From: Clostridia bacterium
GTDB lineage: Bacteria > Bacillota > Clostridia > Christensenellales > UBA1242
Direction: 5' to 3'
Assembly: GCA_028709705.1 (NCBI GenBank)
Contig: JAQVWL010000007.1
Span: 1 to 43,477, forward strand
DNA length: 43,477 bases
Every line of letters starts with the position of its first letter. Positions within the stretch are counted from its first letter, which is position 1. Positions 1,905-33,707 of this stretch are shown one piece after another. The translations under genes and the position numbers were made by a program. Below the pieces are notes generated by a model, which was not told where the DNA came from, did not search any database, and saw only the letters and a list, made by a program, of their open reading frames with translations.

Positions 1905-1910
1905 AATTTG

Positions 1911-8361: not shown

Positions 8362-8391
8362 TTGACATATTTCTACATTTTTTGATATACT
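8362..8391 (+). promoter_or_regulatory. Predicted promoter TTGACA-N18-TATACT driving the giant lipoprotein genes
   Basis: Consensus -35 TTGACA 8362-8367; TATACT 8386-8391; GTGAGGGA SD-like before ATG 8426. Confidence 0.65.
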
Positions 8392-8425: not shown

Positions 8426-11400
8426 ATGAGTATAATTTTTAACAAAAATTTCTCAAAAAATTTAAGCAGAATTGTTTTAATGATTTTTTTTGTTTTTTGC
8501 TCAATATTTTTTACCGCTTGCAAAGAAAATTATGAAAATATGTCTATCACTTTATCAAATAACGGCGGGGAAGTTATCTTGTTCATAAATGAAGGTGTTT
8601 CCACAACCCAATCAGTTGTTGCAACAGTCAATGCAAACGCAAATATAGACAAGCGAATTTTGGTTAGTGCAGAAAGCAATATGATTTTAATAACCCCCCC
8701 AGAATTTGATGGCGAAAATAATTCTACCATAACTTTGACTGCTATTGGTGTTTGCAAAAATGTGCCTGTTAACATAACTTCTGTTGAAGGCGGAAAAACC
8801 GCTGTGTTTTATGTAAGTGTTATTATACCGCTTAATTTACTAAGCGAAACAACAACGCTTGACAATCTTTATGTGGTAAAGGGCGAACCCAAAAACCTTA
8901 ATGTTGAAGAACTTGTCACATTTTCGCCAACCAACACAACACAAAAAGAAATAACCTTTTCTTTGCAAAATCAAATCGCAAATGTTACCCTTGAAAACAA
9001 TGTTTTAACAGTGGGCGAAAATTTTAGCTCAAGCACTATTACCTTGGTTGCAACATCAAAAAGTAATGAAACACAAAAAGCCAATATCACATTAAACGTG
9101 CTTGCACCAATAAATGCCGATATGCTAAACTTTTCAGCCAGATACCCAAACCACACTCAAACTGTAAACTTGCAAACGCAAATTGAACTTACAAAAACAT
9201 TTCAAAACAAAAATAGTGTTGAATTGACAGTTGTTGTTAACTCAATTGAAGATATTGTTATAAATCCCTTTATCAACAGCACATTAACTTTGGCATCAAA
9301 CATTGCAAGTGTTTCCACCTACACTGAAACAAAAAACCCAATAAACACAACCTTTGTTTTTAGCATAAATGCACAAAACACAAACGGAACAGATGCAATA
9401 TTTTTTGAAATTTCTTACAAAAACTACAATTATGTTTACCAAACACAAAAATTTAATATTTATAATTTTGACGCCGTTGCAAGTTTAAGGTATTTGGTTG
9501 ATGGAGTTGTTCCCGAAAGTTATTATTTTACTGTCTATGACAAATACACCGGAACTTATGGAATGGAAATACTTACCGAAGCATTGCCAAACACTGTTCC
9601 GATTTCTGAATGTGGACTTACATTGACTTTGTTAACAGGTGCAAGCGATTATATTTATTACAACCAGTCTGGACAAGTTATTGTTTTTCAAAACAACAAA
9701 TATACCTTTTTAAGCGGTTCAAAAATATATGTTGTTGCAAAAACTCAAAATTCTGCAAATGCACAATTTACAATTTCTTCAAACTCAAACACAGAACTTT
9801 CAAGATTGTTTAATATTAGTGCCGAAGCGGGCGAAACTGCAATTCAATTCAACAATTCGGTAACAGTTGGAACAAATCCAAATTATTATTATTTGACAAC
9901 AAACACTTCAATGGAGCAAAAAATTGGTTTCAACGTTGCCAGCAATAATATTGAAAACATTACCATAACTTCGAGCGGTAGCGGATTTACCGTAAACAAT
10001 ACAATTTATCCAGATGTTAACTTTGGTTCTTATTATTTCTATATAAACTCTGTTATGGGTAGTACCAATCAAACAGGTACTTTGACAATAAGGGCGGGCA
10101 ATGGTCTTACCGCTACTGCCAGAGTGGAAACATTTGTTGAGTTGGTTCAAAACTTGGTTAGTTTTTCTGTTCCCAATTCGCAAGCCAATTCTGCTGTTGG
10201 TCAAGTCAACATTTTGTCTGCAACGCAATTAAACAGCACAACTTTTGACACCAAATTTGCAGTGGCGGTCAAAATAGGAAACAACATAACTTTGACAAAA
10301 AATGTTAAAGGTTCAACAAGCATAAATTATTCTTATTATGATTTTCTTCTTGGCGAAGGCTCTGCCTATGATGAAGATTACATAAATTTCAATCAATTTT
10401 CAAACGCAATGACACAAGTTGCAAATTACAAAGATTATTCCAATGTTATTCGCCCAATATATTTAACTTCGTTTTCTCAAATTTATGCCGGGCAAATAGG
10501 CAAAGTTTGGGTCAAGGTCGAAATAAATGGCAGTCGTTTGGAGGGCGGTGTAAAAACAGCAACAACTTTTGCTTATTATTTTTTGGTAGAATGTTACCAA
10601 CCTATTCAAAACTTAACACTTTCCAACACAACAATAAATCTTTATGCAAAAAATAGCGTTGGTGATGATAATTATGATTTGACATCAAAAAATATTGATG
10701 TTTATCTTAACAATAATGTAACTTACAATCAAATAGTTTGGTCAAACGTTTATGGTTTGAATTATACTCTCAACTCGCAAAAAGTTTATGAGTTTACAAA
10801 CAACATAAATTCAATAAAAATTGAAGCATTTAGCACTCTTGCACCTTATGAAATGAACGGAGTAACTCATTTTGCGAACAAAAATTCTTTGACATTTTAC
10901 TTTGTTGCCAAAATTTTTGAATTTAACAAAGTTTACAGCGTTTCATTGAAAGTAAACATTTTAAAAGCACAACAAGTTGAAAACATTTTTGTGCAAAATG
11001 TTAATGTTCAAAATGGAATTTATATTGAATTAGATTATAGCGGTCAACAAATAACATATCAAATTCTAGCCCAAGCACAAAAAGGCGAAAGCGGTATTAA
11101 ACCTTATAACAACGCATTAGTTTATTCTTTTCAACAAAATGGAAGTACTTCTTCAACAATTTTGTCAATCAACAGTGCAAGCGGTCTTATTACTTTAACA
11201 AACAATGCAAATGCTGTTGGCGGAACGGGCTTTGTAAGAATTGCACCTGCTGATAGATATGTCAACGGGCAATATGTTGCAGGCGAAACAGATATTGCGG
11301 TTTATATCCCTGTCACTATCGCAGATGGCAGAAGTCGAGAAAGTTCTTTTAGAATATCAAGTTTGCAAGAAATTGATAATCTTAATTTGCATTACACTTT

Positions 11401-14400
11401 GATGATAAGTGACATAATCACAAGCGAAGATACTTATGCAATATTTGAAAATTTTGGTGGTGGATTGTATGGTTGTTTGATTGGGCAAAGCAATTTTGCA
11501 ACAATAACAACAAACAAAACGCTTTTTGGTACTTTGTCAAATACCGCACAAATCAAGGATTTGATAATTGTTGGAACAATAACAAACAGTGGAAACGGTT
11601 TTGTTGCAGACACAAACAATGGTGTTGTTTCCAATGTTACAATCGAAACTTTGATAAATGAAAGTCAATACTACGCAAGCAGTTTAACAGTTTCAAATGC
11701 AAACGCAGTTGGCGGTATTGTTGGCACAAACAATGGCGAAATAGCATTTTGTAATTTTTATGGCAAAATAACGTCAACAAATTCAATTGTTGGTGGACTT
11801 GTTGGTATAAACGAAGGCAACATAAACAATTGCAAAGTTGAAATGTATAACTTTTTAAACGAAGATAATATAACCTTTGCAACTATAAATGGTGGCGAGT
11901 TTGTCGGCGGTTTGGTTGGCGAAATGTCAAACGGAACATTGACAAATTCTTATGCTTATTCTTATGCTTATTCTGGCAGTGAAACAAAAAATTATATGGG
12001 CTTAAACATTCTTGGCGGAACAAATGTCGGTGGTTTGGTTGGCAATCTTTTGGGCGGTTCTATCAATATTTGCTTTGCAAACATTAATGATATTACAACC
12101 TTAACGGGCAATTCTTTTACAAGTGGCGAAATTATAAATGCTTATATAATTTACAAAACAAGCAATGAAGCAACAAACGCAAATTATACTGTAAACAAAA
12201 TTGCAAATTACAACTATAACACTCTTCCAATAAACTCAACTTGGGGGAAAGATATAAACAAAAATAGTGGATACCCTTATTTTAAGGCAATTTTGCAAGC
12301 AGATTCAATCGCATCAATGCCAGACACATTGGCAACAAATCTTGAAAATATTATTTCGAAAACAAATACTTCAATAATATATTTTTATGCAAGCAATTTG
12401 ACACTTACTTCACAAGAAATCATTGCTTTAAACAAACTAAACACAATTTTGTTTGGTGATTTGCTTGGTGGCAATGCAAATGGAGTCAAAGCACTTACAA
12501 GCAACAAAAACATTTTAGATGTTTATGCAAATGGCATAACAATAAAAAACACAGGTTTTGCAACTTTAACTTTGTTCTCTAAATATGACTTTTCAATCAT
12601 AAAAACTTTTACAATTTATGTTATTTATCCAATATCAAACTTGACTTTGGTTTATGAAAATTCGCAATTTGCAAATGGTGCAAGCATAAATGTTAAAATT
12701 AGCGATGGTTTTGCCCTAAATGGACAAACAAAAAACTCACTTTTGCTAGTAAACAAAGATATTTTAATAAAAACAAATCAACTTAATCTTGATTTAAGTT
12801 CAAATAATGAAAACGACTATTCTGCCTTTATTTTGGGCAGTGGTCTTGGTGCTTACAATTTTAACACACAGGCACTATACGATTTGGAAAACAATTCGCA
12901 AATTGCAATCAAATATAGCATTTCGCTTATTTCAAATACTTTTGATAGTGGAAAATTGACCGACATAAACTCAATGCTAAAAACCAAGTTTGACAGTCGA
13001 TTTACAATCAATCTCTACAAAGGTGCAGACCAAATAACAACTTCGACTTCCAACGCACAAATTGAACCAAGCGATGTTTATACTTTTGAAACATATATCT
13101 TTTCCGACTTGCCTTATTTGCAAAACAACAGTGAAGAAGATGTTATTGTTTCTATTGATACAAAAAATTATAATACTGACTTATTTACAATAAATGTTAA
13201 TTATATAGGAACTATTTATTACACTAACAAAACTGACTTAACTCAAACAACTGACAATGCAAGTTTGGCGGTTTATTTCCAACATATATTTAGCATTAGC
13301 ATAATGGTTACTGAAAATTATAAGCATTTTGACTTTGATGGAGAAAGTTTTACTGTTTCATTAATTGCAAAATCTTCACAGACCAATTCAATAAATTATA
13401 ATTCAAGTGTGATAGAAAAAAACTTTGATTTGACAATAAATTCTCAATCTATTGTAAGTGTTAATGCAACACATTTTGCGTTGTTGCCAAATGGCAAAAC
13501 TTTGATAAGTCAAAATCAAAAAAATTATGTTTATTATGAATATTCAACTCAATCAAACAGTGTTTTGACTCCGGGCGATGAAGGCTTGCTTGCTGTCAAT
13601 ATTTATCCCGTTTTTGCCAACTATGATTATTTGACCATAACTTATACAACAACAACGGGCGAAAGTGCAAATCTTAGACTTGGCGTTATGAACAAGGAAT
13701 CAAATGGCAAATTTACAAAAAGTAATATTGGCTTTGAAACTCTTGAAAATGGAATAAAAATTTACAATTTATATTCATATATAATTTCACAAATCAATCA
13801 AAACACCTTATATTTAAGCACTTTTATTCCTACTGAAATAGAAAAAGACACCGTTTTTATTATTACTATAAGAGCATATAACGAGGACAACGAATTGGTT
13901 TATCAAGGTGTAAACTTTAACTTGGTTGTGCAATATCTTGAAGGTGCCGAAATTTCAATTTCTGACAGCGATGGCAAAAAAATTAGCACAGTTGCAAGGG
14001 GAACGGAAGAATATCTTGTTATTACAATTCAAAAAGACCAAACTGTCGACCTTGAAAATATTAGTATAGATGGCAGGTTATATGACGGAGATGTCAACAA
14101 CTATATAACATATTCAGGTTTTTCTATCAAAGAAGAAGAATTTTCCACTACAAGAACGTACACAGCATCTTTATATATTGGTTCAAGTCTTAAATTGGAA
14201 GACAATGCAAATTATATAACCGTTGGTGTTACAGTATCTTGGATAATAAACGGCAAATACCAATCAAAAACAACTTATATAAATGTTGGAGTGGTAGACT
14301 TTTTGATTGATGAAGTAAAACTTTTGACTGACAAACCTAACAAAACAAACTTGACTGCCTATATTGGCATTCAAACACCTTTGTTATTTGATTTTTATTC

Positions 14401-17400
14401 AGCAAACAACACAAATCAAAACGCTTCACTTGAAATGTTTTTGGCAAATTATTATTATGAAAACTTGTCAGGTGTCAACACATTTGGTGACTATGTTGTA
14501 AATCGTGGCAATGAAAACATTGGCAGTTTTATGGCAAATTTGTATTATGTAAATGGCAATAATTATTCTCAAATTTTGGGCGGAAATGGCAATATTCAAT
14601 CAAACTCTTATTTCAATTTTTCAGTTGAAGAAGATGGCACAATAAAAATAACAGGAAAGCGAAGCGGTTCTGTTGCACTTTTGTTAAGAATTGAAGTCAA
14701 ATTGCCAAGTGCAACGCAAAATGTTTATAAGTATGTTGACTTTTTGTTTTCAATTACCGTTGGTATTTATAGCGATGAAGACACGCCACTTATTATTGAC
14801 AACGAAACTGCTTTTTATGATGCAATAAATGGCGAAGTGCGACAAAATTATATTTTGATGACCGACATAAATCTTACAAATTATTCGCCGGTTAGCACAA
14901 ACGGAATAGCAAGTTTAGATGGCAATAACTACACAATCAATATTTTAAGTTGGAATACCGAAACCACAGAAGCAGAATTAAAACTTGCTTTGTTTGATAC
15001 TGTAAATGACAATACAACCCTAAAAAATCTTTGTGTAAATGTTTATCATTCAAGCAATATTGTGATAAACACAACCAAACATACAACAATAAATGTTGCA
15101 GGTATTGCAATCACAAACAATGGCGTAATTTACAACTGCTCTGTTGTTGCATACAAAACAAACAACTCACTACCAAATCTTGCTGTCAGTGCTGGTTTTT
15201 CTTTATCATACTCTGTTGGGCAAATTTCTGAAACTATAACAAGTAAACTTGCGGGTTTTGCAATTACAAATAATGGAAACATAACAAATTGTAGAGTTGG
15301 CGGATACAGTGTTGACTATGTTAACAAAAGCAATGTAAATTTGGGTTCTTTCAATTTGACAGGTCAAGGCAATATTTGTGGATTTGTTTTTGAAAATAGC
15401 GGAGTTATTGCAAGCAGTTATTTTGCAAATGCAACAATAAAAAACAACTCAACAAGCGGGTTGACAACATATTCAACAGGCTTTGTTGGCAACAATAATG
15501 GCGACATAAACTTGTCTTATTCAAAAGGTGTGGGCGAAAACAGTTTCAGTTTGTCTGGTGGCGGAATTTCAACTTCAAGCATTAGTGCTGGCTTTGCTTA
15601 TACAAATGGTGGCAGTATTAGTGATTGTTATTCCAACATTATGCTTGCAACAACAAACTTGGCAACACAAAACTTGTATGCAAGTGGCAGATTGACATCT
15701 GGTTTTGCTTACAAAAACGATGGCACGATTGACAGGTGCTTTACTGCAAGTAAAATTGAAGATGCAAAAACAACTCAAATGAATTTTGTTGGTGTTGACA
15801 ATTTTGGTGAAATGCAAAATACAGGTAAAATAACAAACAGTTATTATTACAACCTTAATTCTGACCTTGACAATGCTTATGCAAACACAAATAGCAATAT
15901 TTCTGTAAAAAGAATAAGTGAACCAGACTTGATTGACAATTATTATGGCTTTACTTTTGCTGATTCTGCAAGCAGTATAAATGGAGTTTGGTTTATTACC
16001 GCTTATGGAATAGACTTGGTAAGTGCAAATCAAATTGCAATATCTAATAGGTATGTGGCAAATGAAGTTAGGGACTTAATAACAAATGAATTGACATCTT
16101 ATACTTTGCCATACACAAGCGGTTATGAATATGGCAGTAAAAAGAATCCTATTATCATAAGAAATGCAAGCGAGTTTAACCGAGTTTTTGGCGGAGATAA
16201 CAACAATGCAGGCACTGCTATTGCAAGTTATTACAATTTAGACAATCAAACTGTGTTTGGCAATTACAGAATTGTAACCAACATAAATTTGGGCGAACTA
16301 ATAGCAGATGAAACAAACAACATAAAAATAAAATCAAGCGATATGAGTCTTATTGGCGGAACAATTGATGGAAACTCTTTTGAAATAAGCGGTTTGGAAT
16401 TGGTCGCAAGGGCAGAGTCGGCGGTAAAAAATTATGGACTTTTTGCAACTGTAAAAAACAATTCAATCATAATGAATTTAAATATTCAAGTTATTGCAGT
16501 AAATGCGGCAACCGTTCAAAATGTTGGTGCTATTGCCGGAACTTTGGAAAACTCAAAACTTATCAATTTGTCATTATATTCTAAAAATGTTGACGAAACT
16601 GCAACAATAATAGGAAACAATATTGTTGGTGGTGTTGTTGGCAAAATATTGGGCGAAAGCGAAGTAAAAAATATTTCTATCAACAACATAAATGTAACAG
16701 CAAATCATATTTCAACTTCAACTTCTCAATATTTTGTAAGAGACCAAAGCATTTCAAGTTTGTCAAACACAAATATTTCTTATGCTGGCGGTATTGCGGG
16801 CGTGGTTGATATTTATGAAAAATCACAAATAACAAATTTTGTTCACAACGAAGATATGTCAAAACCGCATTTGGCCTTTTTGAAAGTAAGTGGCTCAATG
16901 TCAATAAACGGTTCAACTGTTGGTGGTGTTTTAGGGTATATGGGACCAAGAACATATTTAAAAGATGCGACCCTAGAACTTTCAAGCAAACTTGACCAAA
17001 AATTGATTGCTTACAATTGTTATGCTGGTGGAATAGTGGGCGAAAACTATGGCGATTTGAATATGCTAAAAGCAGAACACGAACAAACAGTTCAAAAACA
17101 AATTGAATCACAGGTGTCTAGTTATTACAAAAATTCAAGCACGACAGTTCAAAGAGGAAATATGACATTGTTTGAATTTGGCAATGCACAAGATTATCAA
17201 CCTATTGCAATTGGCGGTTTGGTTGGGCAAATGGTAAGTGGCAATTTGCAACACTCTTATTCAAAAGTAAATGTAAGAAATTCAACCGCACTTTATGCTG
17301 GCGGTGTTATTGGTATGGTTCCTTATGCTCCCAACATAAAACAAAATTATATTGACCTTTATGAAGTCTTTGCTTTTGGCGATGTTTTTGCAAGTATTGC

Positions 17401-20400
17401 TGAAAATGTTGTTTCTGGTGCTGGCGGTATTTTGGGCTATGTCAATTTTTCAAGAACACTAAACTTTACCAAAGTAAATGCAGTAAACTATTGGTCTTTA
17501 ACACTTGACACAAAAACAAATACCTATTATTTGCCAAGCAATATTTACGATATTTATGCCGTAACGGGCAATACAAATGCTTATACAAACATTGCTCCAA
17601 TAACTCTTAACAACCTTGTTGTTGACAACAGTGGTGCAATCTCCATAAAAGCAGAATATTTGAATTTGTATAACTTGCCAACTATTGCTTGTGCCGTTAA
17701 CAGCGATAGTATGTTTGCAGTAAAAAATATTGATTTTGACTTAAATGGTGCAAATTCCACTTCAAAAACAAACAATGCTTATGCAAGTTTGGGGTCTTCT
17801 AGTTTTTACAAAATGATAAACGAAGATACTCAATCAATCACAAGTTTTTACACTTTTACAAGCACACAAGTTAGTGGCAGTGAAATGGACACTTATTTTA
17901 GAAACAGTGATTGGGACCCAAATTATTGGTATAGATACCAAAACAATATGCTTCCTTCACTTATAACATACTCTGAAAATCATATTTATTATATATATGT
18001 TGCACAAGACCTAAAAAATATGGTCGCTTATCCAGATGCAACTTTCATTGTTGTTGGTCAAAACAATAATGGAATTGTAAAAGTAGGCAATTATATAAGA
18101 AACACAGGTCTAAACATTGACAACTTCTCCGGCGTTTTGAAAGGTTATGACAGCACAGGCGATTATGGTTTTGACTTTGAAGGTTATTCGCTTACCTTTA
18201 TTTCTTCAACAACCGCGGGTGCAAAAATTTATAACTTGTCAATAAAAAATTTGGGTTCAGCAAGTTCAATGTATCAAGAAAATTTTGGTTCGTTTGTTGA
18301 CCAATCAATCCAAACAACTTATGAAAACTTAACATTTTCAAATTGTCAATTATATTCTTCTGCTTCAAGTGCCACAACAAGCATAGGTCTTATGGCAAAC
18401 AGCATAACAGGTGGTTATATTTCAAACATAACATTTGTTGATTGTTCGGTAAACGCAAAAGCAAATGCTAATATAACAAACCTAAATGTTGGTCTAATGG
18501 CAGGTCAAATTACAACACAAAGCAATTCTTATGTTCAAATTTATGATGTTACCGCATACCTATCAAACGGAAACATAAACAATTCTATTCTTAACGACAT
18601 CAATGTAGATGTCAATGGCAAAACGATAATCAACCTTTGCGTTGGAACAGTTGCGGGCAAAACAACAGGTTCTGTTATGCTCTATTATACCGCAAATTCT
18701 AACACAGAAACTCGAATAAAAGGCGTAGGTGTTTCTGGCACAAGTTCTAATCCTTACTCTGCCGATAGCAGTTTTTCAAGTATTTACAAAGGTATTGTTT
18801 TTGATGTTCAAGACAACAATTTGTCGCAAAATGGTGCAATAATAAACTACAATGCTGGTCTTGTAATTGGCGAAACAAATTCCCTTAACTTGTCTTTCCA
18901 AAGAAGCAGTGCAACACAAAAACTTAATATTGTTGGCGGTTTGACAAACAGCGGTAATGTTGACATAACAAATGCAAACTTGGGCGGTGCAATTGGTAAA
19001 GTGGCGAACAGTATTTCAATTTCCAACAGTGCAAGTTTTGTTGACAAATATGTAAATGTTGATTGTGATATAAACTTTTCTGCTCAAAAAGTAAATGCGG
19101 GAATGTTGATAGGTACTTCTGGAACAGTTTACACAATAGACAATATTGACACCTATGGAACAATAAATGTAAAAGCAACAGAAGGGGCTTCAAACATTGG
19201 TGGATTTGTTGGCAAGGCAAATGCAGATATCAACATTTCAAATGCAGTTAGCAGAACAAAAATAACAGTAGATGACGACAACAATTCTAGCAGTGCACTT
19301 ACCACTGTTGGTGGGCTTGTAGGTTTGTTTAATTCAACAACAAGCAAAATGGTTATTGGTGAAAACAATTTCAATACCAAATATTTGGGAACAATTATAA
19401 TTTCCACAAACAATGTTTATGCGGGCGGAATTTTGGGTTCTGCACTTTCAACTTCAAGTGCAGTAAACAATGACAATGGCATAAGGATAACAAGTGCAGT
19501 TTTTGGTGGTGATATAATAATTGAAAGCACAGCACTATCTTATATTGGCGGAATTATGGGTGCTTCAAATTATAACGGACTAACAAACAACGAACCAAAA
19601 AGACTTTTGAAAAACAATTTGGCTTATGGCAATATTTATGTCAATTGCGATTTGGCAGAAAACGAAGACGCAAGTTACGTTGGTGGATTGCTTGGCAAAG
19701 GTTCAAGTTTTACATATCTAAACAGCAATTATTCGGTTGCAACAATTTTCACAGCAGGCACTCAAACGCATGAAAATGCCAACATAAACGCACTTGTGGG
19801 CGTGTCAAATGGTTCAAAAACCGATACAGACACAAACAACCAAAAATATGTTAACTACTATTCAAACCAAGTTAGTTTGTGTTTGGATTATAACCCAAGT
19901 GAAAGTGTTGATGCTTTTGCAAGCGAAAATGTTTATTATTTGACAAACAATGGCACAGGCACAAGTACTATGCTTGATGTTTTAACAGCATACAAAAATC
20001 AACTTACAGAATTAGAAAAAACCTATGAAATATATTATGGTTCAAAAATAAATCCAATTTTGATAAACGAAAGCGGGTATTCAACCGCTAGCGGTTACTT
20101 TAATGACGATTTTGGTGGCAAGGCAAAATATTTTGTTATAAATCAAGCATTGTCAGAAAACAAAATGCAAAACATAACACTCAAAAATGCGTTTATTATT
20201 GGCGATGGTTTTACTTTGACAAACAAAAACAATGCAGTTTTTGCTGAAATAGATGCAAAAAGTGTTGTTAGTGGAATAAAAGTTAAGGCGGAAATAACAA
20301 CGTCAAATACAAACTTTTTTAGCGGTGGAACTGTTTCAGCAACGGGTGTTGGAACACTTGCAAATGTCAACAAGGGCACAATTTATGCGTGCAATACCAA

Positions 20401-23400
20401 TGAGGTGCAAAGTGCTTCGATTTATGATGTTTATGGAATAAAAAACACAAATAGCGGAGTTTATGTTGGCGGTCTTGTTGGTGTCAATGGCGGTTATATT
20501 TTAGATAGTTATGCCGATGTTGATGTAAAAGGTTCAAGCAATGCAGGCGGTCTTGTTGGCCTTAATGCTGGGCTTATCAGCAACAGTTATAGCACAGGCA
20601 AAGTTGTCAGTCCAACTGCTTATGCGTTCGGTCAAGGCAATGGTGGAAAAGTATATTATTGCTACACTTCTTCAATGGTTGAAGGCAGTTCTGCAAGCGT
20701 GTTTGGAAATAATACTGCAATTGGTTGCTATTATGATCTTTATGGAACAGGTGTTTGGCAAAACATTCAAAACGGAGATGAAAACACAATTATAACAAGC
20801 AACACAAACACAATGGCGGTTATTACCGAAAACACAGGCACAGAAATATTCCTATCAAACCCAACCGCAAGCATAAAATTTGGTTATGATTTTACCAAAA
20901 ATTATGGTTACTTAACTTTTAACGGAGAAGCATACAGCAATTTCAGTTATATGCAAAATGGGTCAACAGGCAATGGATCAGTAAGTAACAACGCAATTTT
21001 GATTCCAAATGTTGGAAAATTGCAACAACTTAATGATAATGCCACCCAAGCAAAACATTACGCATTGATAAACGATATTTCTTTGACAAGTGATATGGCA
21101 AGCAGAGGTGCTGATGACTATGGCATCAAAAATTGGAAAGCGATTGGCATAAGTGAAGGTTCGGCATTTGCGGGAACATTAACAGGCGAATATTTTGTCA
21201 ATGAAGAAAGCAACAATCACTCAATTTCTGGGCTTGCAAGCACAACGCTTACGGGTTATGTTTATGGTTCAATTTTTGGCGAAACAAACAATGCGGAAAT
21301 AACAAACTTAACAATCAAAGATAGCAGTTTTGAAAATCAAACAGATTATATTGCAGGTCTTGTTTCAAGAGCAAACAACACAACTATTGAAAATATTACT
21401 GTTGAAAATTGCACCTTTAACTATACAGCAAGCGGAGGAATTAACCTTGGCGGTATTGTTGCAAAAGCAACGGGTTTGACAACAATAGAAAACTGCTCTG
21501 TTAGCCAAAGCACAACTTTTGGATATGGTCAGGAAAACAGTTCTTCAAGTTATACAAGCAATATTGGTGGTTTGGTGGGCAGTGCCTTAAATTCTGTATC
21601 TATTAAAAACAGTACAGTGGGAAATGCTTGTCAATTTGGTTACATATCTAGCGGTTCTGTCAAACTTGGTGCAATTTTGGGCAGTGCAGATGGTTCTCAA
21701 CCAATCAACAATCAACCAATAAGCATTGAAGATTGTTCAGTTGGAAATGAAATAGTATTTAGTTATTCACCTGAACAAAGCGTAAGCAGTAAAAGCAATA
21801 TTGGTGGCATTGTTGGATATTCAAAAGGACTTGATATAACAAATGTTGAAATGGGTGCAACAAATCAATTCAACTACCTTGCAAATGGCACAAGTTATAT
21901 GGGCGGAGCGGTTGGCTTTGCAGACCAAAACACTTCTCTTGATACAGTAAAATGTGGCGAAGGTTATGCTTTTAAATACACAGCAACAACAGGGGCAAAT
22001 TCAAGTTATATGGGTGGTATGTTTGGCAAGGCAAGCAATGTTTTAATCACTTCAAGTTCAATTGCAAACGCATACTCGTTTGAATATAGTTCAAATGGCA
22101 CAAGTTATATGGGTGCATTGGCGGGTATTATAGATGCAGGTCAAGCAAGTTCAGTTAATTTGTCTGGCATTACATATGGCACAAATTATGATTTTAGTTT
22201 TGCAACAACCTTAGCGGGAACAAACACAAATTATTTGGGCGGTTTGGCTGGCAAAATTGATGGTGCAACAATAACAAATTCAAGCACACAAACAATATCA
22301 GGCAGTAGTTGGAATTATAAGTACACACTTTCAGATTCATTTTCAATTCAAAACTATGTTGGCGGTGTTGCGGGTTATATTGACAATTCAACCATAAGCG
22401 GTTTCAGTGTTGAAAATGTTAACTTTGGCGGAAGCATAAGCAGTGCAAGCCTAGGCGAAAATTATCTTGGCGGTGTTGCAGGCTATATTGCAAACTCAAC
22501 CATAAAAACAATCAAAGTTTTAAGTTGCACGAATTTATGTTCTTATAGCGGATATGTTGGAGGTATTGCGGGCGTTGTTGAAAACACAGAAATAGGAAAA
22601 GAATTTACAGGTGGAACAGCAAATATTACACTTTCAAACTTGAATATTGATGGTGTTGAAACCGCCAAAATTGGTGGAGTTGCTGGAAAAATTAACAATA
22701 TAAGTGAAGAAGAGAAAAATATTCAAAACATTTCTATTTCAAGTTGCCATATAAACAACCCAAGCTTATCCGCAAAAGTTGGAGGTGTTGTTGGCGAAAG
22801 CGATAGTGCAACCCTTTCAATTAAATATGTTGACATTGATGGCTCTTCAACTATAACAAGCAACAACACAGCGGGCGGAATTTTGGGCGAAGGTTCGATT
22901 GACACGATTTATAAGTGCAACAACAATGCAAGTGTTAGCGCTTATGCACAAAGTTTAGAAATTTCTGGCGGTGAAAATGATGATACAATTACCCCTTATG
23001 CCGGCGGAATTGTCGGAAAACTTGTTGCGGGAATTATAAGTGAATGCGACAACACAGGTTTAATAAATGCGGGTTATAATGTGCCTAATGCAAAATGGTT
23101 TAAATATAATTTTACAGATATGATAATTGGTGAAAATATTGAATATTCAAAGGGTTCAAATCAAAGTTTTGCGGGCGGAATTTCGGGGTATAGTGGAGCA
23201 GAAGTTGTTGTTTTAGATTCAAGGAACTTTAACTCGGTAACAGCAAAAGCAAAAATAACAGTTGCAATCAAAAAAGCCAATTACTCATTCGAAGTGTTTG
23301 GTGTTGGTTATAGAGCCGAAGGTTATTTGGGTGGAAAAGTTGAAAAAGCATACGCAAACGGCATTTCCTATATAAGCAATGGAACAAGTTTGCTAAATTG

Positions 23401-24007: not shown

Positions 24008-24038
24008 AATTTCAATTCAAAACTTTTAGGAGAACTTT

Positions 24039-27000
24039 ATGAAAAAAATTTTGGTATTAATATTTGGTTTTTGTTTAGTACTCTCGGGAATGCTTTTCTC
24101 GGGTTGCGGGGACCCTTATGCCAATGTTTATTTAAGTTCAACAAAAAGTCAAATACAATTAGCAGTGGGCGAAACAAAAATTTTTGAAGTACAAATTGAA
24201 AATTATTTTGCAGAAATGAGTTCAAGAATGAGTGCAAACAGCGATGGCGAATTTGCAAGAATTGTAGACATAGATTATCAAAGCAACGGAAAAGCATTTA
24301 TAAGTATTGAAGGTTTAAAAGTTGGAAACGGAGCAGTTCGTGTTTCAACCTATGAAGGTTCAAAAAGCGTTAGTTTAAATGTGGAAGTTTATCAAAAAGT
24401 AACAGGTTTTGAACTAAAAACAAATCCATATGTTGTTAAAGAAAGCGGTTTTGAATTGGTTTTAAAAAATGCAAACTTCTTTGATTTTGAACCAGTAAAT
24501 TCAACCGAAACTCCAATAAAATATACTTATAGCAACCTTAGCGAAAATTTGGAAATCAAAAAAATAATTACTGTTGAAGAAAACGACCAAATAAAAATTG
24601 CTTTACTAACAGCAGAAAATGAAACAATTTTTATAACAGAAGATTATTTTCGGTTGTCAGCAACACTTACAGAATATCCAGAAATAAACCCAATTGAAGA
24701 CTTTTTGGTTGATATAATTGAGCCAATCCAAATTGGCGACCTTAATATAATAAAAAAGGGTTATGACACAGAAAATTATTTGAATGGCGAAAATATAGAA
24801 AAAGTTGAAGAAAATGGTGAAATTACTTTAATTTCAAACAAAAGAGAAAACAGTTATATTGAACTTGAATTGCAAGTTCAAACAGCAAATGTTTTGATTG
24901 AATTAAGTTCTTCAAAAAGTGTTTTGTCGCCTATTTTGGTAAGCGAAAATGACTTTGATTATACTTCAAGTAACAGTTATTTTTTCAGCATTCAAGCCAG
25001 AGATTTGGGTTATGACACCTTAACAATAAAAGCATTTTATGAAAATTATGACGAATATTTGGTAGAAAAAAGTTTTGCAATAAATACTTTAATTATGCCA
25101 ACAAATATTGTGGTTAATGATTTAAGTATGTTTGAAACGCCCGTTATTTTGTATGACCATAATTATGGCAACGAAACAGAATACAAACTTACAGTTGCAG
25201 TAAATTCCTTGGACTCGCTTTTTGAAAGTATTAGTTTTGATGTGATGACTTTTGCAGATGAAACATATACAAATCTTGAAAATTGGAGTCAATACTTATT
25301 TATAAAAGAAAAAGGTATTACAAAAACAACAAACTTTCAAATTCCTTATAGCAGTTTTTCGGGCAATGTATTGTCAAATTCAATCACTTTGTTGGGCAAT
25401 GTTCAATATCAAGGCACAATTTTTATAAGACTTACACTTAACAGCAATTTGATTAGCGAAGGCTCAGTTGTTTTCTATATTCCAATTGAAATCAAAAAAG
25501 GTGCTTTTGGCTTTGAAGTTGAAAGTCAATACGCAAATGGCATTGTTTTGGACCTTAATGAAGAACCACAATATTTTGACGCCTTGTTAATAGACGACCC
25601 CGCATCTTATATAGGCAAAATGGCATTCAACTATCTTTCAACTGCAAGTTTATATTTCAAAGTTGAACAGTCTGCCTTTGGTTCTTTGCAAATCAAACTA
25701 ACACCACTTGCGATTGGGCAGGGCGAAGTAAATTTAATTTTGCCAAATGGTAAATTTGTAAAAATAAAAATAATAGTAAAACAAAGTTTGACTGATGCAA
25801 ACTTAACACTTTTAAACTCAAATTATATTTCAAAAATAACAACTGATGATAACAACAACTTAACAAGTTTTGCAATAAAATATTATTTGGAACCAGATAG
25901 CAAAGACACAGTAAAAACTTATTTAAAATTGCTTACAAATCCAAGCACAGCAAATCTTTTTTCGGCAAGTTACACAATTGAACAAGAAGAAAGTAATATA
26001 AGTTTTGATGTTAACACTTATGAAATTTTGATAAACAAAACAGGCAGTGCAATATTAAATATAAAACTTCAACTTTTGCGTGTCGAAGATTTTGAAATTG
26101 CAACAACAGAAAACGAAATCAATTTTTCTGTTGAAATATTAATCTATTCACCATTAAATAGTTTTGAATTTGAACAAAATTCTACTTCTGTTAGCAACAT
26201 AGAAATTTATAGAAGCAGTGATGTTGGCTTTATTTACATACAACAAAACTATTCTCAAATTGAACTTGATTTGGTTGCAACTCTTCTTAATGGCACCCAA
26301 ATTGAAAACATATTTACATATTTTTCTAGCAATGAAGATTTTGCAATCACAAAATCAAGCCAAAACACTTATACTTTTGTTGCTGATGACAACTTTGGTC
26401 TTTCTGGCACAATGTTAAACTTTGGAACCTATGCCATTAGTGGCAACAAATTAACACTTAATTGCAATGATGTTTTTGCCAAAACAAACATAAGTTTTTG
26501 GATAGCAATTTCAATCAAACAATACAACATAACAATTACAAAGGTTTTAAACATAAAAATTTTGGAATACACACCGCTTTATTCTGTTGGTTTTTATAAT
26601 TATCAAGAAGAAATATACTTGTCGGAAACTTCTCCAAGTTATACATTTTCAACATTCCTTGACCCCAATGCTGACTGCCAAGAATTTAGGGCTTTCTTCA
26701 AGTCAAGAACGGGTGGCGGTGATGATTTGATAAATGTTATTGTCAGAAATGATTTTAAACAAGTTAAAATCGAATACAACAAAAACAAAGGAACAGGTTA
26801 TGGAACCTTGTATTTTGTTCCTTTAACTTCATACACAAGTCAAGACACATATTCTTATTTTACCAGTCTTACTGTTTATGTTTCTGATGGAAGTGATATA
26901 GATAACCCTATGCCAATAAATACAGCACAAGAGTTTAAACAGGCAATGCTCAACGCTCAAACAAGCACCGCAAAACATTTTAAAATAACAACTACTCTTG

Positions 27001-30000
27001 ATTTTGCAAATGTAAATTTATCTGGTATTGGCGAATTTAATGGAACAATCACAGGTGCAAACAGTTCAGCCAAACTTACAAACATAACAATAAATACTGT
27101 TTATACAACCGGCGATAATTCTTATTATGGTATTTTTCAAAAATTGGGTGCAAATGCTGTAATAAAAAATCTTGTTTTTGAAGGAAAAATTTTGATAGAC
27201 ATAAATTCTAGCAACAATTTTGCCATAGGCTTGCTTGCGGGCATAAATTTGGGAACAGTTCAAAATTGCAAATTTTTGTTAAACGCTTCAAGTATATTGA
27301 TAAAAGACACGGCAAACGCCACCAGCACCAAAAATATTTTTGTAGGTTCAATTGTTGGTGTTAACAATGGTACAATAAAAAATATAGTTGATTTGGAAAA
27401 CAACACATTCAACCACACTTTGCTAAATCACAACGGTCTGTTCGCTTGTGAATATCGTGGATATTCAAACAACACTGCAATAGGCGGAGTTGCAGGCATC
27501 AACAATGGCGTAATTTTAAGAGAAAATCCAAACGGTTTTGTTGTATACAATTCAAGTGTTTATAGCGCGGTTGAAAACATACTTTCAACGGGATTTTACA
27601 CAACGGGCGGTGTTGCGGGGAAAAATAATCTAACCGAAATTGCCATTGGAGATTATACCAACTCAACAATTTCTGACTTGCTTGTTGATGGAACGATAAG
27701 AGCAGTTGGTTATGGTATCACAACCGAACTCAAAATTGGCGGAAAAAATGTTGGCGGAATTGTTGGAACAAATAATTCTTATATAAATAATTGCACAATT
27801 CGTACAAAAATAAGTGGTATCAATTTTGTTGGTGGAATAGTTGGCAATGACAATACAATTCAAGGTTATACGGGCGTAAATACCAACTATCAGTTTATAA
27901 CAAATTGTGAAGTGCAAGCAATTTACAATGGCACTTTTGCATATATGATAACCGCGTTGGAAAACTTGGGCAATATTGGTGCAATAGCAGGCAACGAAAC
28001 AACATTTTTAAATGAATATCTTTACAGCCAAAACAATAACAATGCGTATTATTATTACACAATAAGTGAAACTAACAAAATTTTCCCTGTTGCATATGAA
28101 TATGCAAACAACAAATTTACAAAAATAAAATACAATTCAGACAATCCTTATTACAATTTATTTACATTCAAAGCAGTTGCAATAAACGTTCAAGAAATCA
28201 CACCAGATTATGAAAAAGGTGCACAAAAACTTGAAGTAGAAAACACAATTTTTGACAACCTTGTTTGTTTTATGTTTTTCTACCAAGCAGAAAATACTGC
28301 TTTGCAAAGTACTTTGAATAGTTATAACAACAACCGTGAAATTCCTTTTGTTTTTGAAAACAGCAATAGTTTGATTTTGACACCTGAATCAACAAATATT
28401 TTAAGCATAACCCCCGAAGGCAAAATTAACTTAAACGGAACGGGTCTTGCAATTGTAAAAGTAACAAGTTTGTTAAACACAACAATAAGCAATTTTTATG
28501 TTTATATTTATGTTATCAATGCTTTTGATGGTTTTAAAGTGTTTACTTCAAACAATGACTTGATTACAACCAACGCTGTTTTGACAATTTATGAAAAAAG
28601 GCCCATTGAACTAAACTATCAATTTACACATTCAAATATCGAAGTAAGGGACAATTACAACCAAATTGTTTGGGCAAAATTGGTTAACAACACAAAAGGT
28701 AGTTTGTTGACAACCATAAGCGGAGACACTCAATATATAAACATAACACAAACGGGCAATTTGTTGATATTGTCTGTCAACACCGTTTCAGGACTAAATC
28801 AAAACAATATAATAGTTTTATCTCCAATATTTAGCAATTCCATAAATATTGTGGGCAATGTTTCAATTCCTAATACCGAATTGGAAAAGTTTATTTCAGC
28901 GACAAATGATTCAGTAACAATGCTTGCTTATGCAAAGCGTGGCACAGAAAGTATCCAAACAAATATTTCCAGCACAACAGTTGAACCAATAGATGTGTTT
29001 ACAATTATTGTTAACCAAAAAACAGATTATCAAAATGATTATTTAAATATCACAAGCACAAAAGTTGGTGACACAAGTGGCAACAATGACTATTTTATAA
29101 TAAAAACAGCAAGCGGATATACTTTTGATGAAACAAATAATGTTTATTTATATAATGGAACAAATGGCAGTTTTGCCTTCCAATTCAATTACCAAAAATA
29201 TGTCAACACAGATTACGCAGGTCAATATTATATAACATTTATGGCAGACAATGGAGAACTAATAAATGTATATGTCAATATTGAAACTCAACAAGTTTCC
29301 AACATTATCCTAAAAAGTTTTTATAACATTGGCACAACTTTTGACAATACAATGCTAGAAAACAATTATATGGCAAGCAACGCAAACAATTTGCTTTTGA
29401 TTGAAGTTTTTCCAAACTTTGCTAATTATGATTACATTTTCGTAAGAAACGATGCTATAAACACACAAAATGAAAATATTGTTTTGTTTGAAGTTGTTAG
29501 TCTTGATGAAGAAAATCAACTAAACTTTGTATTTGGAGTAACTTATACAAATGGCGGAGCAAAAATACCAAGAAGTGTTTTGCAAAACTTTGCTCCAAAC
29601 AGTTACGGTGCAAGACTTTATGTAAAATATACAACAACTTCAAAAGCCAAAGTTGACAGTCAAGCAAAAATTGTTGTTGAAGCAATCAAAACTACAAACA
29701 ACGTTGACACAGTAGTTTACAGCACTTCAAAAACAATTACAGTCATTATAAAAGACAATGTTTCATTCAGCATTGTTGGCAAAGAAATTGTTTCTGGGCA
29801 AAATATTTATTTGGCAAAAGGCAAAACTTATGAACTAAACCTTAATATTTATGGCTTTACTGAAAATCAAATGCAAATAGAAATCACAAACAGTTATGGT
29901 TTGAACACAAACGCAGTTGCAATAACCAAACAAAACAACAAATGGTATTTGACAGTAAATACTGATGTAATTTACACAACAGGCGAAGAAGGTTATTTTG

Positions 30001-33000
30001 TAAAAATTGCAACATATGGCGAAAACACAATAGATGGTTTGTATTATTCAAGTGGAAAATCATATTTAAACATAATCATTGTTGATTTTGTTATTTTGAC
30101 AAGCAATATTGATGGTTTCGATTTTGAAACTGAAAATATAAGTGATTATGCAAAAAATACAATAATAAAAAACGCAACAAAGGCAGTTGCAAAAGTTGCA
30201 GTTGGAAACAAATACGATTTGGAAATTGGCTTTGAAAATGGCTTGACAATAGAATATGACACAACAAATGCAAATGTATATAACCAAGTTGTTGCTTTTC
30301 AAAATGCTTTAAAAACAAGCGGGGTTTGGCAACTCAACGCAACTGAATTTGGCATTGCAGGCGAATATGACTTGACAAAAATATTGACAACAGCAACAAA
30401 CATATCAAATCAATATTTAAGAGTTTGGTCATCTAGTGCAAACACGATTTCAGTTAGTCCTATGAAGTTGATTGATTATTTGTTAACCAATTACTATTTC
30501 AATTTTTCAGCAAAATTTGAATATCAAAATGGTTTGCCAACAATAACAAGCAGTCAAAGTGGTTTTAGTTTTGAAACAGATTTTGTGCTTGATGTTTATC
30601 CAACAAGCACCGAAGAAAACGCAATTCCAATTTATACATACAATGATTTGCTAATAATGAAAGAAAACAGTTGGTATATTATGATGAATGATATACAACT
30701 TGAAAGCAGTTTTATCCCGCTTAACATAAATATTGCAGGTCTAAATGGAAATGGGTATTCAATAATTTATCCACTAACCTTAACAATAAACAATTTTGAA
30801 AATGTTGGTCTTTTTTCCCAAGTTTATGAAAAAACAATATTAAAAAATATTACAATAAAAATAAAAAACACTTCTTTAATTACTATTGAAAATGAAAATG
30901 CAATAAATTTTGGAATGTTGGCAGGGTTTAATAACGGAGTTATAACAAATTGCTCGGTATTTTCAGAAAATTACAATACTTTTACTGTTATTATCAAAGG
31001 TCAAGTTGCCAATTTTGCGGACAATTATGTTGCTGGTCTTGTCGGGCATAATGCCGGATATATTACAAATTCAAGAGTGGAAATGAACTTGATTGCAAGT
31101 GCAAACATTGCTGGCTTTGTTGGAATAAATGAGTCAAAAATTGCAAGCAGTTATGTAAAAAATACTTCAATCATAAACAAAATTTCATCTACAGCAAACT
31201 TTACTGCTGGATTTGTGGTAAAAAACGGAATCTCGGTAGATACAAAAGCAAGCATTACTTCTTGTTATGTGGGTCGTGATTCTAGCAGTACAACACTTTC
31301 TTCTCCTAGCACAACAAAATTTTTGAGTTCAAATAGTGAAGTTGCTGGTTTCGCTTATTATAACTATTCAAAAATTTCTAATTGCTATTCTGATATTTTT
31401 ATCAGGTCAAGTTCACTTAGGTCTGGTTTTGTGTTCCACAATGCAGGCACTATTAGCAACGCATATTCAACTTCAAATTTTGAACTTAGTGGTTCAACTG
31501 CATATGGTTTTGTTTGCAATATCAGCATAGGTAGCAACAGGGGAACAATAACAAATAGTTTTTATCAAAAAAGTACAAACAACACAACAGTTACAAATCC
31601 AGTAAATTCTGGTGTTTTGGAATTGACAACAAGTCAGTTTGCAAGCACAGTAATATTTAAAGCGTTTGTAATTTCTTCATCAACAAACAAAACAGAAGGT
31701 GTTTGGTTCTATCCATCAAGCAACACAGAAGCATTGTTCAAAATTGATGGAGTTGCACAAAAATTTACTTATGGAAAACTTGAATTGGTTAGCCCAAATT
31801 TGATTGCAAGCACTCAAAAGAAATTGGATTTGGCAAACACAACTTACAACCAATCAACAGGCGAAACAATATATAAATATTATGAAACAAGAGAAGCAGA
31901 TGGAGCATTACTAAATCCATATTTAATCTATTCTGCAAACAATTTTGAAAATTATATTTTGTCAAATTCATTAAGTTTTACAAACAGTTCTATGTATCGC
32001 ATAGTATGTGATATAGATTATGTTGCGGAAGGAAAACTTACTTCCAATTTATACAAAACAACTTTCAAAGGTGTGCTTGAAGGCAATGATATGACTGTTG
32101 CAGGTTATGTTATAGACACAAAAGAAAGTTTGACAAATGGCGGTCTTTTTGCCAAAATTGGCAACGGATATTCAAATGAAGGTTGTGTAAAAAACTTGAA
32201 CATTCAACCAAAATATATAAATATGCCAAACACATCAAATGTTGGTGCGTTGGCGGGAACATTGCAAAGCGGTAAAATTTACAACATAACAGTTGATGGT
32301 TTCAGATACGAAGAAACAGGTTTGGTTATTATAGGTTACAATTGCGTTGGCGGAATTGTCGGCGTTGCAAACAACAACTTTATTGTCAAAAATGTGACAA
32401 GTTCAGTTTCTGCTCGTGCAAGTTACAAGTCTTCATTGGTTGGTGCAAACTTGGGTATTTATTCTTCTACAAACACAACTCAAATTTCATATTCTGGCAC
32501 AATTGTTGGAGTTACAGATAACTCTGGCACAATTTCTTATGTTAGCACAACAAACAATGTTGCTTCAATGGCAGAAATTGCAGGACTTATGTTTGGCAAA
32601 ATTGGCACAAATGTCAAAGTAAGTGAAATAAATTTGACAATAAACAACGAGCAATTTGTCAACGCATCTAGTTATGGCGGTATCATTGCAGGGGAAAATA
32701 ACGGACAGATAACCAATGTAAACATAAGTGGAACAGCAAGTCAAAACTTCTTCAAAACAAGCCCAATCATTCCTCTTGCTGTCGGTGGTGTTGTTGGCTT
32801 GAATATAGGTGGAAAGATTGAAACAGTTATTTGCAATCTTAACTTTGGTTGGTTAACAATAAGCCCAACAATTGTTAGCGGTCTTGTTGGCGAAATGCTT
32901 GGTGGAGAAATAAAAGACAGTCAATTTGATGGCGATATTAACATAATTGCTGATATCAATTTTGCAACTTCTTTTAGTGCAACAGTTGGCGGTATTGTTG

Positions 33001-33707
33001 GCAGAATTGCTTGTGTTCCAACAGCAAGCATAAGCGTTTATGCAAGCAATGCAACACTTTATAATTGTCACACTTATGGCAACATAAATGTAAGCACAAA
33101 TAGCATTTATAGAATAAATATTGGCGGACTAATTGGCGAAACAGTCAACACATATACAAGCACAACATCAAACACAACAACAAAATATGCTTATACATTA
33201 AACAAGTGTACAAATGCTTGCAATATCACTCTTGATTCCAAAATGTATGATGGGGTTATGTATTGTGCAGTTGGTGGGTTGATTGGCGGAGCGTATGCCG
33301 ACACAACAAAAACTTTTGCCGGCGAAATTATAATTTATGATAGTGTAACTGCTGTGCCACAAACAAACAAATACGAAAGCAGTTCCACCGCGAGATTTAA
33401 TATAAGCATAAAAGATTATAAAAACAATGGTATTTTATATTTACAATATGGCGGAATTTTGGGTTATGGATACCCTGTAAGTCAACTTACAGTTGTTGAT
33501 GAAGTACCAACAAAATCAAACTCTTGGGGACTTATGCTCCAAGGTGCAGACAAATCAACAACCGCACCAAGTTATGATGGTCAATATGACACAACAGACC
33601 CAGAAAACATTGTTCCGATATTGGATATGAAAACAACAATATATTTGATTTTAAACATCTATGTTATAGAAAAAAATTATATTGACAACAATTATTGGTT
33701 AGAATAA
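24039..33707 (+). CDS. Giant (3222 aa) GLUG-repeat surface lipoprotein, paralogue of the upstream gene
   Basis: Lipoprotein signal MKKILVLIFGFCLVLSGMLFSGC; Big_2-like YLSSTKSQIQLAVGETKIFEV; GLUG repeats GGVAGINNGVILREN, GGIVGTNNSYINNC, GGVVGLNIGGKIET; SD AGGAGA 31 nt after the previous stop. Confidence 0.9.
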   Translation: MKKILVLIFGFCLVLSGMLFSGCGDPYANVYLSSTKSQIQLAVGETKIFEVQIENYFAEMSSRMSANSDGEFARIVDIDYQSNGKAFISIEGLKVGNGAVRVSTYEGSKSVSLNVEVYQKVTGFELKTNPYVVKESGFELVLKNANFFDFEPVNSTETPIKYTYSNLSENLEIKKIITVEENDQIKIALLTAENETIFITEDYFRLSATLTEYPEINPIEDFLVDIIEPIQIGDLNIIKKGYDTENYLNGENIEKVEENGEITLISNKRENSYIELELQVQTANVLIELSSSKSVLSPILVSENDFDYTSSNSYFFSIQARDLGYDTLTIKAFYENYDEYLVEKSFAINTLIMPTNIVVNDLSMFETPVILYDHNYGNETEYKLTVAVNSLDSLFESISFDVMTFADETYTNLENWSQYLFIKEKGITKTTNFQIPYSSFSGNVLSNSITLLGNVQYQGTIFIRLTLNSNLISEGSVVFYIPIEIKKGAFGFEVESQYANGIVLDLNEEPQYFDALLIDDPASYIGKMAFNYLSTASLYFKVEQSAFGSLQIKLTPLAIGQGEVNLILPNGKFVKIKIIVKQSLTDANLTLLNSNYISKITTDDNNNLTSFAIKYYLEPDSKDTVKTYLKLLTNPSTANLFSASYTIEQEESNISFDVNTYEILINKTGSAILNIKLQLLRVEDFEIATTENEINFSVEILIYSPLNSFEFEQNSTSVSNIEIYRSSDVGFIYIQQNYSQIELDLVATLLNGTQIENIFTYFSSNEDFAITKSSQNTYTFVADDNFGLSGTMLNFGTYAISGNKLTLNCNDVFAKTNISFWIAISIKQYNITITKVLNIKILEYTPLYSVGFYNYQEEIYLSETSPSYTFSTFLDPNADCQEFRAFFKSRTGGGDDLINVIVRNDFKQVKIEYNKNKGTGYGTLYFVPLTSYTSQDTYSYFTSLTVYVSDGSDIDNPMPINTAQEFKQAMLNAQTSTAKHFKITTTLDFANVNLSGIGEFNGTITGANSSAKLTNITINTVYTTGDNSYYGIFQKLGANAVIKNLVFEGKILIDINSSNNFAIGLLAGINLGTVQNCKFLLNASSILIKDTANATSTKNIFVGSIVGVNNGTIKNIVDLENNTFNHTLLNHNGLFACEYRGYSNNTAIGGVAGINNGVILRENPNGFVVYNSSVYSAVENILSTGFYTTGGVAGKNNLTEIAIGDYTNSTISDLLVDGTIRAVGYGITTELKIGGKNVGGIVGTNNSYINNCTIRTKISGINFVGGIVGNDNTIQGYTGVNTNYQFITNCEVQAIYNGTFAYMITALENLGNIGAIAGNETTFLNEYLYSQNNNNAYYYYTISETNKIFPVAYEYANNKFTKIKYNSDNPYYNLFTFKAVAINVQEITPDYEKGAQKLEVENTIFDNLVCFMFFYQAENTALQSTLNSYNNNREIPFVFENSNSLILTPESTNILSITPEGKINLNGTGLAIVKVTSLLNTTISNFYVYIYVINAFDGFKVFTSNNDLITTNAVLTIYEKRPIELNYQFTHSNIEVRDNYNQIVWAKLVNNTKGSLLTTISGDTQYINITQTGNLLILSVNTVSGLNQNNIIVLSPIFSNSINIVGNVSIPNTELEKFISATNDSVTMLAYAKRGTESIQTNISSTTVEPIDVFTIIVNQKTDYQNDYLNITSTKVGDTSGNNDYFIIKTASGYTFDETNNVYLYNGTNGSFAFQFNYQKYVNTDYAGQYYITFMADNGELINVYVNIETQQVSNIILKSFYNIGTTFDNTMLENNYMASNANNLLLIEVFPNFANYDYIFVRNDAINTQNENIVLFEVVSLDEENQLNFVFGVTYTNGGAKIPRSVLQNFAPNSYGARLYVKYTTTSKAKVDSQAKIVVEAIKTTNNVDTVVYSTSKTITVIIKDNVSFSIVGKEIVSGQNIYLAKGKTYELNLNIYGFTENQMQIEITNSYGLNTNAVAITKQNNKWYLTVNTDVIYTTGEEGYFVKIATYGENTIDGLYYSSGKSYLNIIIVDFVILTSNIDGFDFETENISDYAKNTIIKNATKAVAKVAVGNKYDLEIGFENGLTIEYDTTNANVYNQVVAFQNALKTSGVWQLNATEFGIAGEYDLTKILTTATNISNQYLRVWSSSANTISVSPMKLIDYLLTNYYFNFSAKFEYQNGLPTITSSQSGFSFETDFVLDVYPTSTEENAIPIYTYNDLLIMKENSWYIMMNDIQLESSFIPLNINIAGLNGNGYSIIYPLTLTINNFENVGLFSQVYEKTILKNITIKIKNTSLITIENENAINFGMLAGFNNGVITNCSVFSENYNTFTVIIKGQVANFADNYVAGLVGHNAGYITNSRVEMNLIASANIAGFVGINESKIASSYVKNTSIINKISSTANFTAGFVVKNGISVDTKASITSCYVGRDSSSTTLSSPSTTKFLSSNSEVAGFAYYNYSKISNCYSDIFIRSSSLRSGFVFHNAGTISNAYSTSNFELSGSTAYGFVCNISIGSNRGTITNSFYQKSTNNTTVTNPVNSGVLELTTSQFASTVIFKAFVISSSTNKTEGVWFYPSSNTEALFKIDGVAQKFTYGKLELVSPNLIASTQKKLDLANTTYNQSTGETIYKYYETREADGALLNPYLIYSANNFENYILSNSLSFTNSSMYRIVCDIDYVAEGKLTSNLYKTTFKGVLEGNDMTVAGYVIDTKESLTNGGLFAKIGNGYSNEGCVKNLNIQPKYINMPNTSNVGALAGTLQSGKIYNITVDGFRYEETGLVIIGYNCVGGIVGVANNNFIVKNVTSSVSARASYKSSLVGANLGIYSSTNTTQISYSGTIVGVTDNSGTISYVSTTNNVASMAEIAGLMFGKIGTNVKVSEINLTINNEQFVNASSYGGIIAGENNGQITNVNISGTASQNFFKTSPIIPLAVGGVVGLNIGGKIETVICNLNFGWLTISPTIVSGLVGEMLGGEIKDSQFDGDINIIADINFATSFSATVGGIVGRIACVPTASISVYASNATLYNCHTYGNINVSTNSIYRINIGGLIGETVNTYTSTTSNTTTKYAYTLNKCTNACNITLDSKMYDGVMYCAVGGLIGGAYADTTKTFAGEIIIYDSVTAVPQTNKYESSSTARFNISIKDYKNNGILYLQYGGILGYGYPVSQLTVVDEVPTKSNSWGLMLQGADKSTTAPSYDGQYDTTDPENIVPILDMKTTIYLILNIYVIEKNYIDNNYWLE

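Follow-up and report, generated by a model that had tools for sequence, protein, structure and literature searches.

The question raised by this locus is what two giant lipoprotein genes of unequal length, one directly behind the other, might do for a genome-reduced bacterium. The window, by which we mean the whole stretch of 43,477 nucleotides that was analysed, is one contig of a 924 kb genome (99.5% complete, approximately 31% GC), and the two loci, here called A and B, together occupy 25 kb of its 0.9 Mb. Named records with a relative of B include Christensenella sp. UBA5489, several 'Clostridia bacterium' MAGs and Candidatus Caccopulliclostridium. Caccopulliclostridium is placed in the GTDB family UBA1242 (PMC8035907), and UBA5489 is a genus of the same family, order Christensenellales (PMC12306168); it is through these relatives that the window is assigned to UBA1242. 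The family is described as an uncultured gut lineage of reduced genome size (about 1 Mb), probably an obligate symbiont or parasite, which has an incomplete glycolysis, no ATP synthase and no standard sugar, amino-acid or peptide transporters (PMC12306168). On its interaction with other cells that study names only 'hypothetical membrane-bound proteins', and a search of the literature covering giant surface proteins with GLUG repeats, lipoproteins of Christensenellales and type IV secretion in UBA1242 found no description of the A/B pair.

The first-pass annotation, made from the sequence, had claimed tandem giant lipoprotein ORFs, each running from a lipoprotein signal through a beta region, a short GLUG block and a second beta region to a long GLUG block. 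Both ORFs are present and uninterrupted, and the features of the locus are as follows.

8362–8391, + strand: promoter-like site, TTGACA-18-TATACT with an extended -10, placed 34 bp upstream of the start codon of A
8426–24007, + strand: ORF A, giant lipoprotein of 5193 aa, the upstream paralogue
8426–8521, + strand: A, predicted signal peptide with its lipobox, up to Cys32 (FFTA|C)
8522–11341, + strand: A, first stalk, beta-rich and Ig-like by homology to the modelled part of B; aligned to B 1–950
11342–12293 (end approximate), + strand: A, GLUG1 solenoid, with a Glug match over the cut-off at 11780
12294–14779, + strand: A, second beta stalk; diagonal of A 1316–1877 to B 1410–1934
14780–17977, + strand: A, solenoid core (modules 2a and 2b), the most conserved part of A
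17978–24004, + strand: A, specific C-terminal extension with cap motifs; modules A3 (from 17978), A4 (from 20048) and A5 (from 20987)
24008–24038, + strand: gap of 31 bp between A and B, with no terminator-like site
24039–33707, + strand: ORF B, giant lipoprotein of 3222 aa, the downstream paralogue
24039–24107, + strand: B, predicted signal peptide with its lipobox, up to Cys23 (LFSG|C)
24108–26900, + strand: B, first stalk, a predicted string of Ig-like domains (AlphaFold2 and Foldseek)
26901–28028 (end approximate), + strand: B, GLUG1 solenoid, modelled as a cap helix and short repeated strands
28029–30614, + strand: B, second beta stalk, aligned across eight species and to A
30615–33704, + strand: B, solenoid core (2a from 30615, 2b from 31911) and C-terminus (AlphaFold2)
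33776–34381, + strand: o201, an ORF of 201 aa after B, conserved in the window's genus and in G019; its association with the pair is uncertain

GLUG1 begins at residue 973 of A and 955 of B, and the long GLUG block at residues 2119 and 2193 respectively. These starts agree with the segment sizes that had been claimed, as do the C-terminal GLUG parts of 9.2 kb in A and 3.1 kb in B. All eight landmark peptides cited in the annotation were found, the four with positions lying within 3 nt of where they had been placed (13058/28977 and 13601/29406). The claimed order of segments thus holds, with two refinements: the first 'beta region' of B is a predicted Ig-like string, and the long GLUG block consists of separately capped solenoid modules, of which 2a and 2b occur in both proteins and A3–A5 only in A. 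The promoter-like site matches the consensus at 11 of 12 positions and is the best in the region; this is a consensus match, not functional evidence. An Rfam scan of the window found nothing, and o201 matched nothing in Pfam or NCBIfam.

Both proteins are predicted to be lipid-anchored, as judged from a signal peptide followed by a lipobox that is kept in nearly all relatives. A has a hydrophobic window at residue 13 and none comparable elsewhere, and no second clear transmembrane segment was detected by hydrophobicity in either protein. Neither carries a C-terminal LPxTG sorting signal (the LPxTG-like matches in B are internal and have no tail), and Pfam scans gave no match to SLH domains at E up to 5; anchoring by LPxTG or SLH was rejected, as neither signal was found. 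The GLUG motif (PF07581) scored over its cut-off of 20.5 bits at 11780, 20531 and 21434 in A and at 32334 in B. In whole-protein and piecewise Pfam scans it passed in B (22.4 bits) and fell just below the cut-off in pieces of A; a Pfam search with whole B at E 0.01 returned nothing, and GLUG appeared with shorter pieces and in the genome search.

Structure prediction was run on parts of B. For residues 23–1202 AlphaFold2 gave successive beta-sandwich domains with GLUG1 after them (pLDDT 78, pTM 0.39), and a Foldseek search with the first stalk matched titin, contactin, cadherin and the Ig strings of S-layer proteins, including Sap, SbsB and SbsC. Residues 2175–3222 (30561–33704), modelled together with 15 orthologues, gave a two-part beta-solenoid (pLDDT 81, pTM 0.81). 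The best PDB matches of this core model were the beta-helices of IgA1 proteases, with lyases and phage tailspikes matching weakly; full-chain TM-scores were 0.09–0.19, and the core profile had no match among PDB sequences at E up to 1. The modelled parts of B are predicted to be strings of Ig-like domains and GLUG beta-solenoids; the fold of A and of both second stalks is predicted from homology and sequence.

To compare the two proteins along their whole length, a profile of nine A sequences was aligned with a profile of eight B sequences. A single alignment was obtained, covering A 1–3020 and B 1–3006 with probability 100, E 2e-108 and 22% identity; BLASTP of the C-terminal part gave 161 bits (E 2e-42). 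When the proteins were compared in steps of 200 residues, the best match stayed on the A/B diagonal, weakly so at A 400–600, 1400–1600 and 1800–2000. The continuous N-to-C diagonal on which the claim of colinear paralogy depended is therefore present in both comparisons, and the claim is borne out over approximately 3000 residues. As a control, four GLUG proteins that this genome encodes besides the pair matched A and B over GLUG stretches only. The large GLUG ORFs of the genome other than A and B comprise 3887 aa (G000:C18; L084:656–12319), 945 aa (G000:C20; L086), at least 984 aa (G000:C7; L085) and 2361 aa (G000:C6; L083), and none of them shows colinearity with either member of the pair.

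When the solenoids were divided wherever a recurring cap motif occurs, the result was modules GLUG1, 2a and 2b in both proteins and A3, A4 and A5 in addition in A. The modules of the shared part were reciprocal best matches between A and B (2a with 2a, score 300; 2b with 2b, 210), GLUG1 excepted: GLUG1 of A matched that of B best (124) and A4 next, and GLUG1 of B was slightly nearer to its own 2a (136) than to GLUG1 of A (126). Chance repeat similarity of A and B was rejected on the full-length profile alignment, the GLUG controls from the same genome and the module matrix. The surplus of A over B, about 2,100 residues, consists of further GLUG solenoid modules. A3 and A5 are similar to one another and to 2b, and A4 is similar to GLUG1 and 2a, so the extension of A looks like added copies of existing module types. 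Conservation peaks in the solenoid core, where different species are up to 70% identical, and falls to its minimum toward the C-terminal end of A.

We then searched related genomes for the pair. With the core profile at E 1e-10, the solenoid core was found in 101 of 118 sampled UBA1242 genomes, representing 37 of 42 genera. In an order-wide sample of 151 genomes there were eight core matches at E 1e-30, all in UBA1242, and none in the 143 genomes of other families; in the samples searched the pair is family-restricted. Among the matches listed, 83 genomes had strong cores, 67 of them two and none more; these counts cover the matches listed, and weaker further copies are possible. Divergent relatives in single copy occur in G010 and G021. 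A and B lay on one contig and strand less than 30 kb apart in at least 32 genomes from 17 genera, among the matches listed. In one of these genomes (G052) other genes lie between the two same-strand core genes, and genus g50 has a block of other genes between A and B. In the remaining 31 two-core genomes among the matches listed, A and B were on separate contigs. For some genomes this reflects an assembly break at the pair, as in G006 and G007, where the tail of A opens the contig that carries B. In a further genome A was read as two ORFs of 1654 and 3907 aa (G004:C59; L054, L055), reflecting a frameshift or an assembly error. The pairing seen in the window is thus conserved, and relatives retain the two genes in tandem on the same strand.

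The gene order in many genera is mfd, a prsA-like gene, a lysylphosphatidylglycerol-synthase-like gene, small ORFs, a SpoIIQ-like M23 gene, tilS, A, B, rpoB and rpoC; in the window's genus A and B are followed by o201 and phosphomannomutase. In the window, within 5609–6799, the M23 peptidase ORF upstream of tilS resembles SpoIIQ with 77 bits, far below the equivalog cut-off; the preceding ORF (5609–6118) has a very weak DUF1779 match only. UBA1242 is reported to possess sporulation genes (PMC12306168).

A recent duplication within the window's genus was rejected, because separate orthologues of A and of B occur in many genera. At 15 further loci the upstream gene scored higher with the A core profile in every case, and the downstream gene favoured the B core profile in 13, being ambiguous in G047 and G052. 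In a tree of 49 rows, built by a quick method with no bootstrap and with no root inferred, one branch (SH-aLRT 96) parts all A from all B. Forty-five of the rows were labelled by gene position or genus orthology; for four solitary genes, two in G008 and two in G009, the labels were read off the tree, which makes the single-branch result partly one of construction where these rows are concerned. With these labels G008 and G009 each carry one A and one B. In a first, less well-sampled tree, where the four genes were unlabelled, two changes were needed for A and two for B. A and B share a common ancestry, and as one supported branch divides them, these sequences are most simply, though not conclusively, explained by a single tandem duplication that preceded the divergence of the sampled genera.

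The length asymmetry proved to be a matter of lineage. The annotation had described a C-terminal solenoid expanded in the upstream protein, and the expansion of A is real in this genome; as a general direction it does not hold, since among the matches listed the upstream protein was longer in 20 of 32 same-strand pairs and the downstream protein in the other 12. Genera with a longer downstream protein were, among the matches listed, g9, g14, g40, g41, g44, g45 and g46, and the longest relatives reach 8752 aa, or approximately 26 kb. Within the window's genus B is near-constant at 3220–3281 aa, as it is within many genera, and A has 5193 aa here and 5622 aa in G001. In several other genera colinearity of the A orthologues reaches to about residue 4400, which makes a large part of the C-terminal extension old. 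Two giant paralogues that stay together while their C-terminal lengths shift by lineage open the evolution of fibre length to comparison.

The pair is giant, predicted to be membrane-anchored and probably older than the diversification of the family, and so A and B are good candidates for touching or holding other cells. We consider it somewhat probable that they are adhesive lipid-anchored fibres, descended from a giant lipoprotein gene that was duplicated in tandem long ago in UBA1242, and that they support a partner-dependent life. Each protein would be exported and anchored by lipid at its N-terminal cysteine, and would form a fibre in which an Ig-like stalk leads into a short GLUG beta-solenoid and a second beta stalk into a longer solenoid. 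The conserved core of the solenoid may be the common working part, and the added, faster-changing solenoid modules, which may lengthen either partner according to lineage, probably set reach or binding specificity. The most likely targets of the fibres would be glycans or proteins on partner cells, or host mucus. Contact with such targets, the identity of the partner and joint action of A and B are what we infer here, and the single paired surface structure that the annotation suggested reaches further than the data; searches of A and B showed no known binding domain. Giant ORFs have been proposed to serve cell-cell contact in Omnitrophota (PMC10066038). The core is missing from some UBA1242 genera and is therefore not indispensable for how the family lives. 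As an orthologous pair found family-wide, A and B offer a handle: probes or antibodies to the conserved core could reveal the partner and test attachment.

An architecture of solenoids and Ig-like domains also fits a structural role, and the main rival to adhesive fibres is a lipid-tethered, S-layer-like coat that would shield or shape the cell without a specific binding partner. The likeness of the B stalk to Sap, SbsB and SbsC, the retention of the pair beside housekeeping genes including rpoBC, and the near-constant length of B in many genera all favour such a coat. Against it, Pfam scans showed no SLH domain, the predicted anchor is a lipid instead, and the lengths of both proteins differ widely among genera; we regard a coat as rather unlikely, though a serious competitor. 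A less probable reading still is that A and B process glycans, their solenoids being catalytic beta-helices like those of polysaccharide lyases or hydrolases, or that they are relatives of M26 IgA1 proteases. It draws on the structural matches of the solenoid model and on a weak M26_N match in A (19.6 bits against a cut-off of 27.7), but the TM-scores are low over the full chain, Pfam and NCBIfam give no enzyme family, and HExxH is absent from A and B, on which ground identity as an M26 protease was rejected. We find an enzymatic role improbable. That A and B are alike only through recurring GLUG and Ig modules, and are adjacent by accident, is already disfavoured and seems very improbable indeed: GLUG proteins are common, several others being encoded in the same genome, but those match over GLUG stretches only, the stalks outside the GLUG blocks are colinear as well, one branch divides A from B family-wide, and 67 genomes have two strong cores and none more among the matches listed.

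A VirB4-like ATPase was observed in the same genomes. That of the window genome (G000:C21:62342–65008; L142:8342–11008, minus strand) scores 583.7 bits against a cut-off of 590 for the Mbov_0397 ICE ATPase family (NCBIfam). Relatives occur in 58 of 59 sampled UBA1242 genomes and 41 of 42 genera, and in only 10 of 68 genomes of the order's other families, as if a conjugation-type ATPase had been turned into a family trait. The sole sampled genome with no match, G062, belongs to genus g56, and the A/B core is absent from all four sampled genomes of that genus (G062, G085, G104 and G122). In genus g50 and at loci L096, L098 and L099 the gene directly 5′ of B encodes a VirB4-like ATPase, and in one lineage (L096–L100; G056, L117–L119) B is separated from A and is flanked immediately by a VirB4-like gene of about 900 codons on its upstream side and by rpoB on its downstream side. 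A polytopic membrane protein adjoining the VirB4-like copy of G008 (L145:4923–7871) passes the cut-offs of two conjugal-transfer families, MMCAP2_0566 and Mbov_0396 (NCBIfam). Relatives of this type were found in all 44 sampled genomes and adjoin the VirB4-like gene in several; that of the window genome (G000:C6:21587–23113) is on the same contig as the 2361-aa GLUG protein. Any functional link of this module with A and B is speculation. It is an improbable proposition that A and B together with this VirB4/VirB6-type (Mbov_0397/Mbov_0396-like) module, near-universal in the family, form a dedicated partner-contact apparatus of UBA1242, in which two fibres of unequal length would hold the partner and a domesticated conjugation-type channel would move material from cell to cell.

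Among known systems, A and B resemble GLUG-motif proteins (PF07581) in their repeats over the cut-off, but the motif covers only part of either protein, and the order of Ig-like stalk, solenoid, second stalk and solenoid, like the paired locus, lies outside the family definition. With Ig-repeat surface proteins and S-layer proteins such as Sap, SbsB and SbsC they share the predicted tandem Ig-like stalk of B; they differ in having neither an SLH nor an LPxTG anchor and in the interleaving of GLUG solenoids with stalks. The M26 IgA1 metalloproteases, with their N-terminal beta-helix, provide the closest solved structures to the core of B and the weak M26_N match in A, and are set apart from A and B by HExxH and by the low full-chain TM-score. 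Omnitrophota and other bacteria that depend on partners (PMC10066038) likewise have very large surface-type ORFs in small, presumably host-dependent genomes. The threshold applied to these giant ORFs was >20 kb, above the 15.6 kb of A and the 9.7 kb of B, and they are described as poorly conserved and often rich in transmembrane helices, whereas A and B are predicted lipoproteins that occur as a pair and have orthologues throughout their family.
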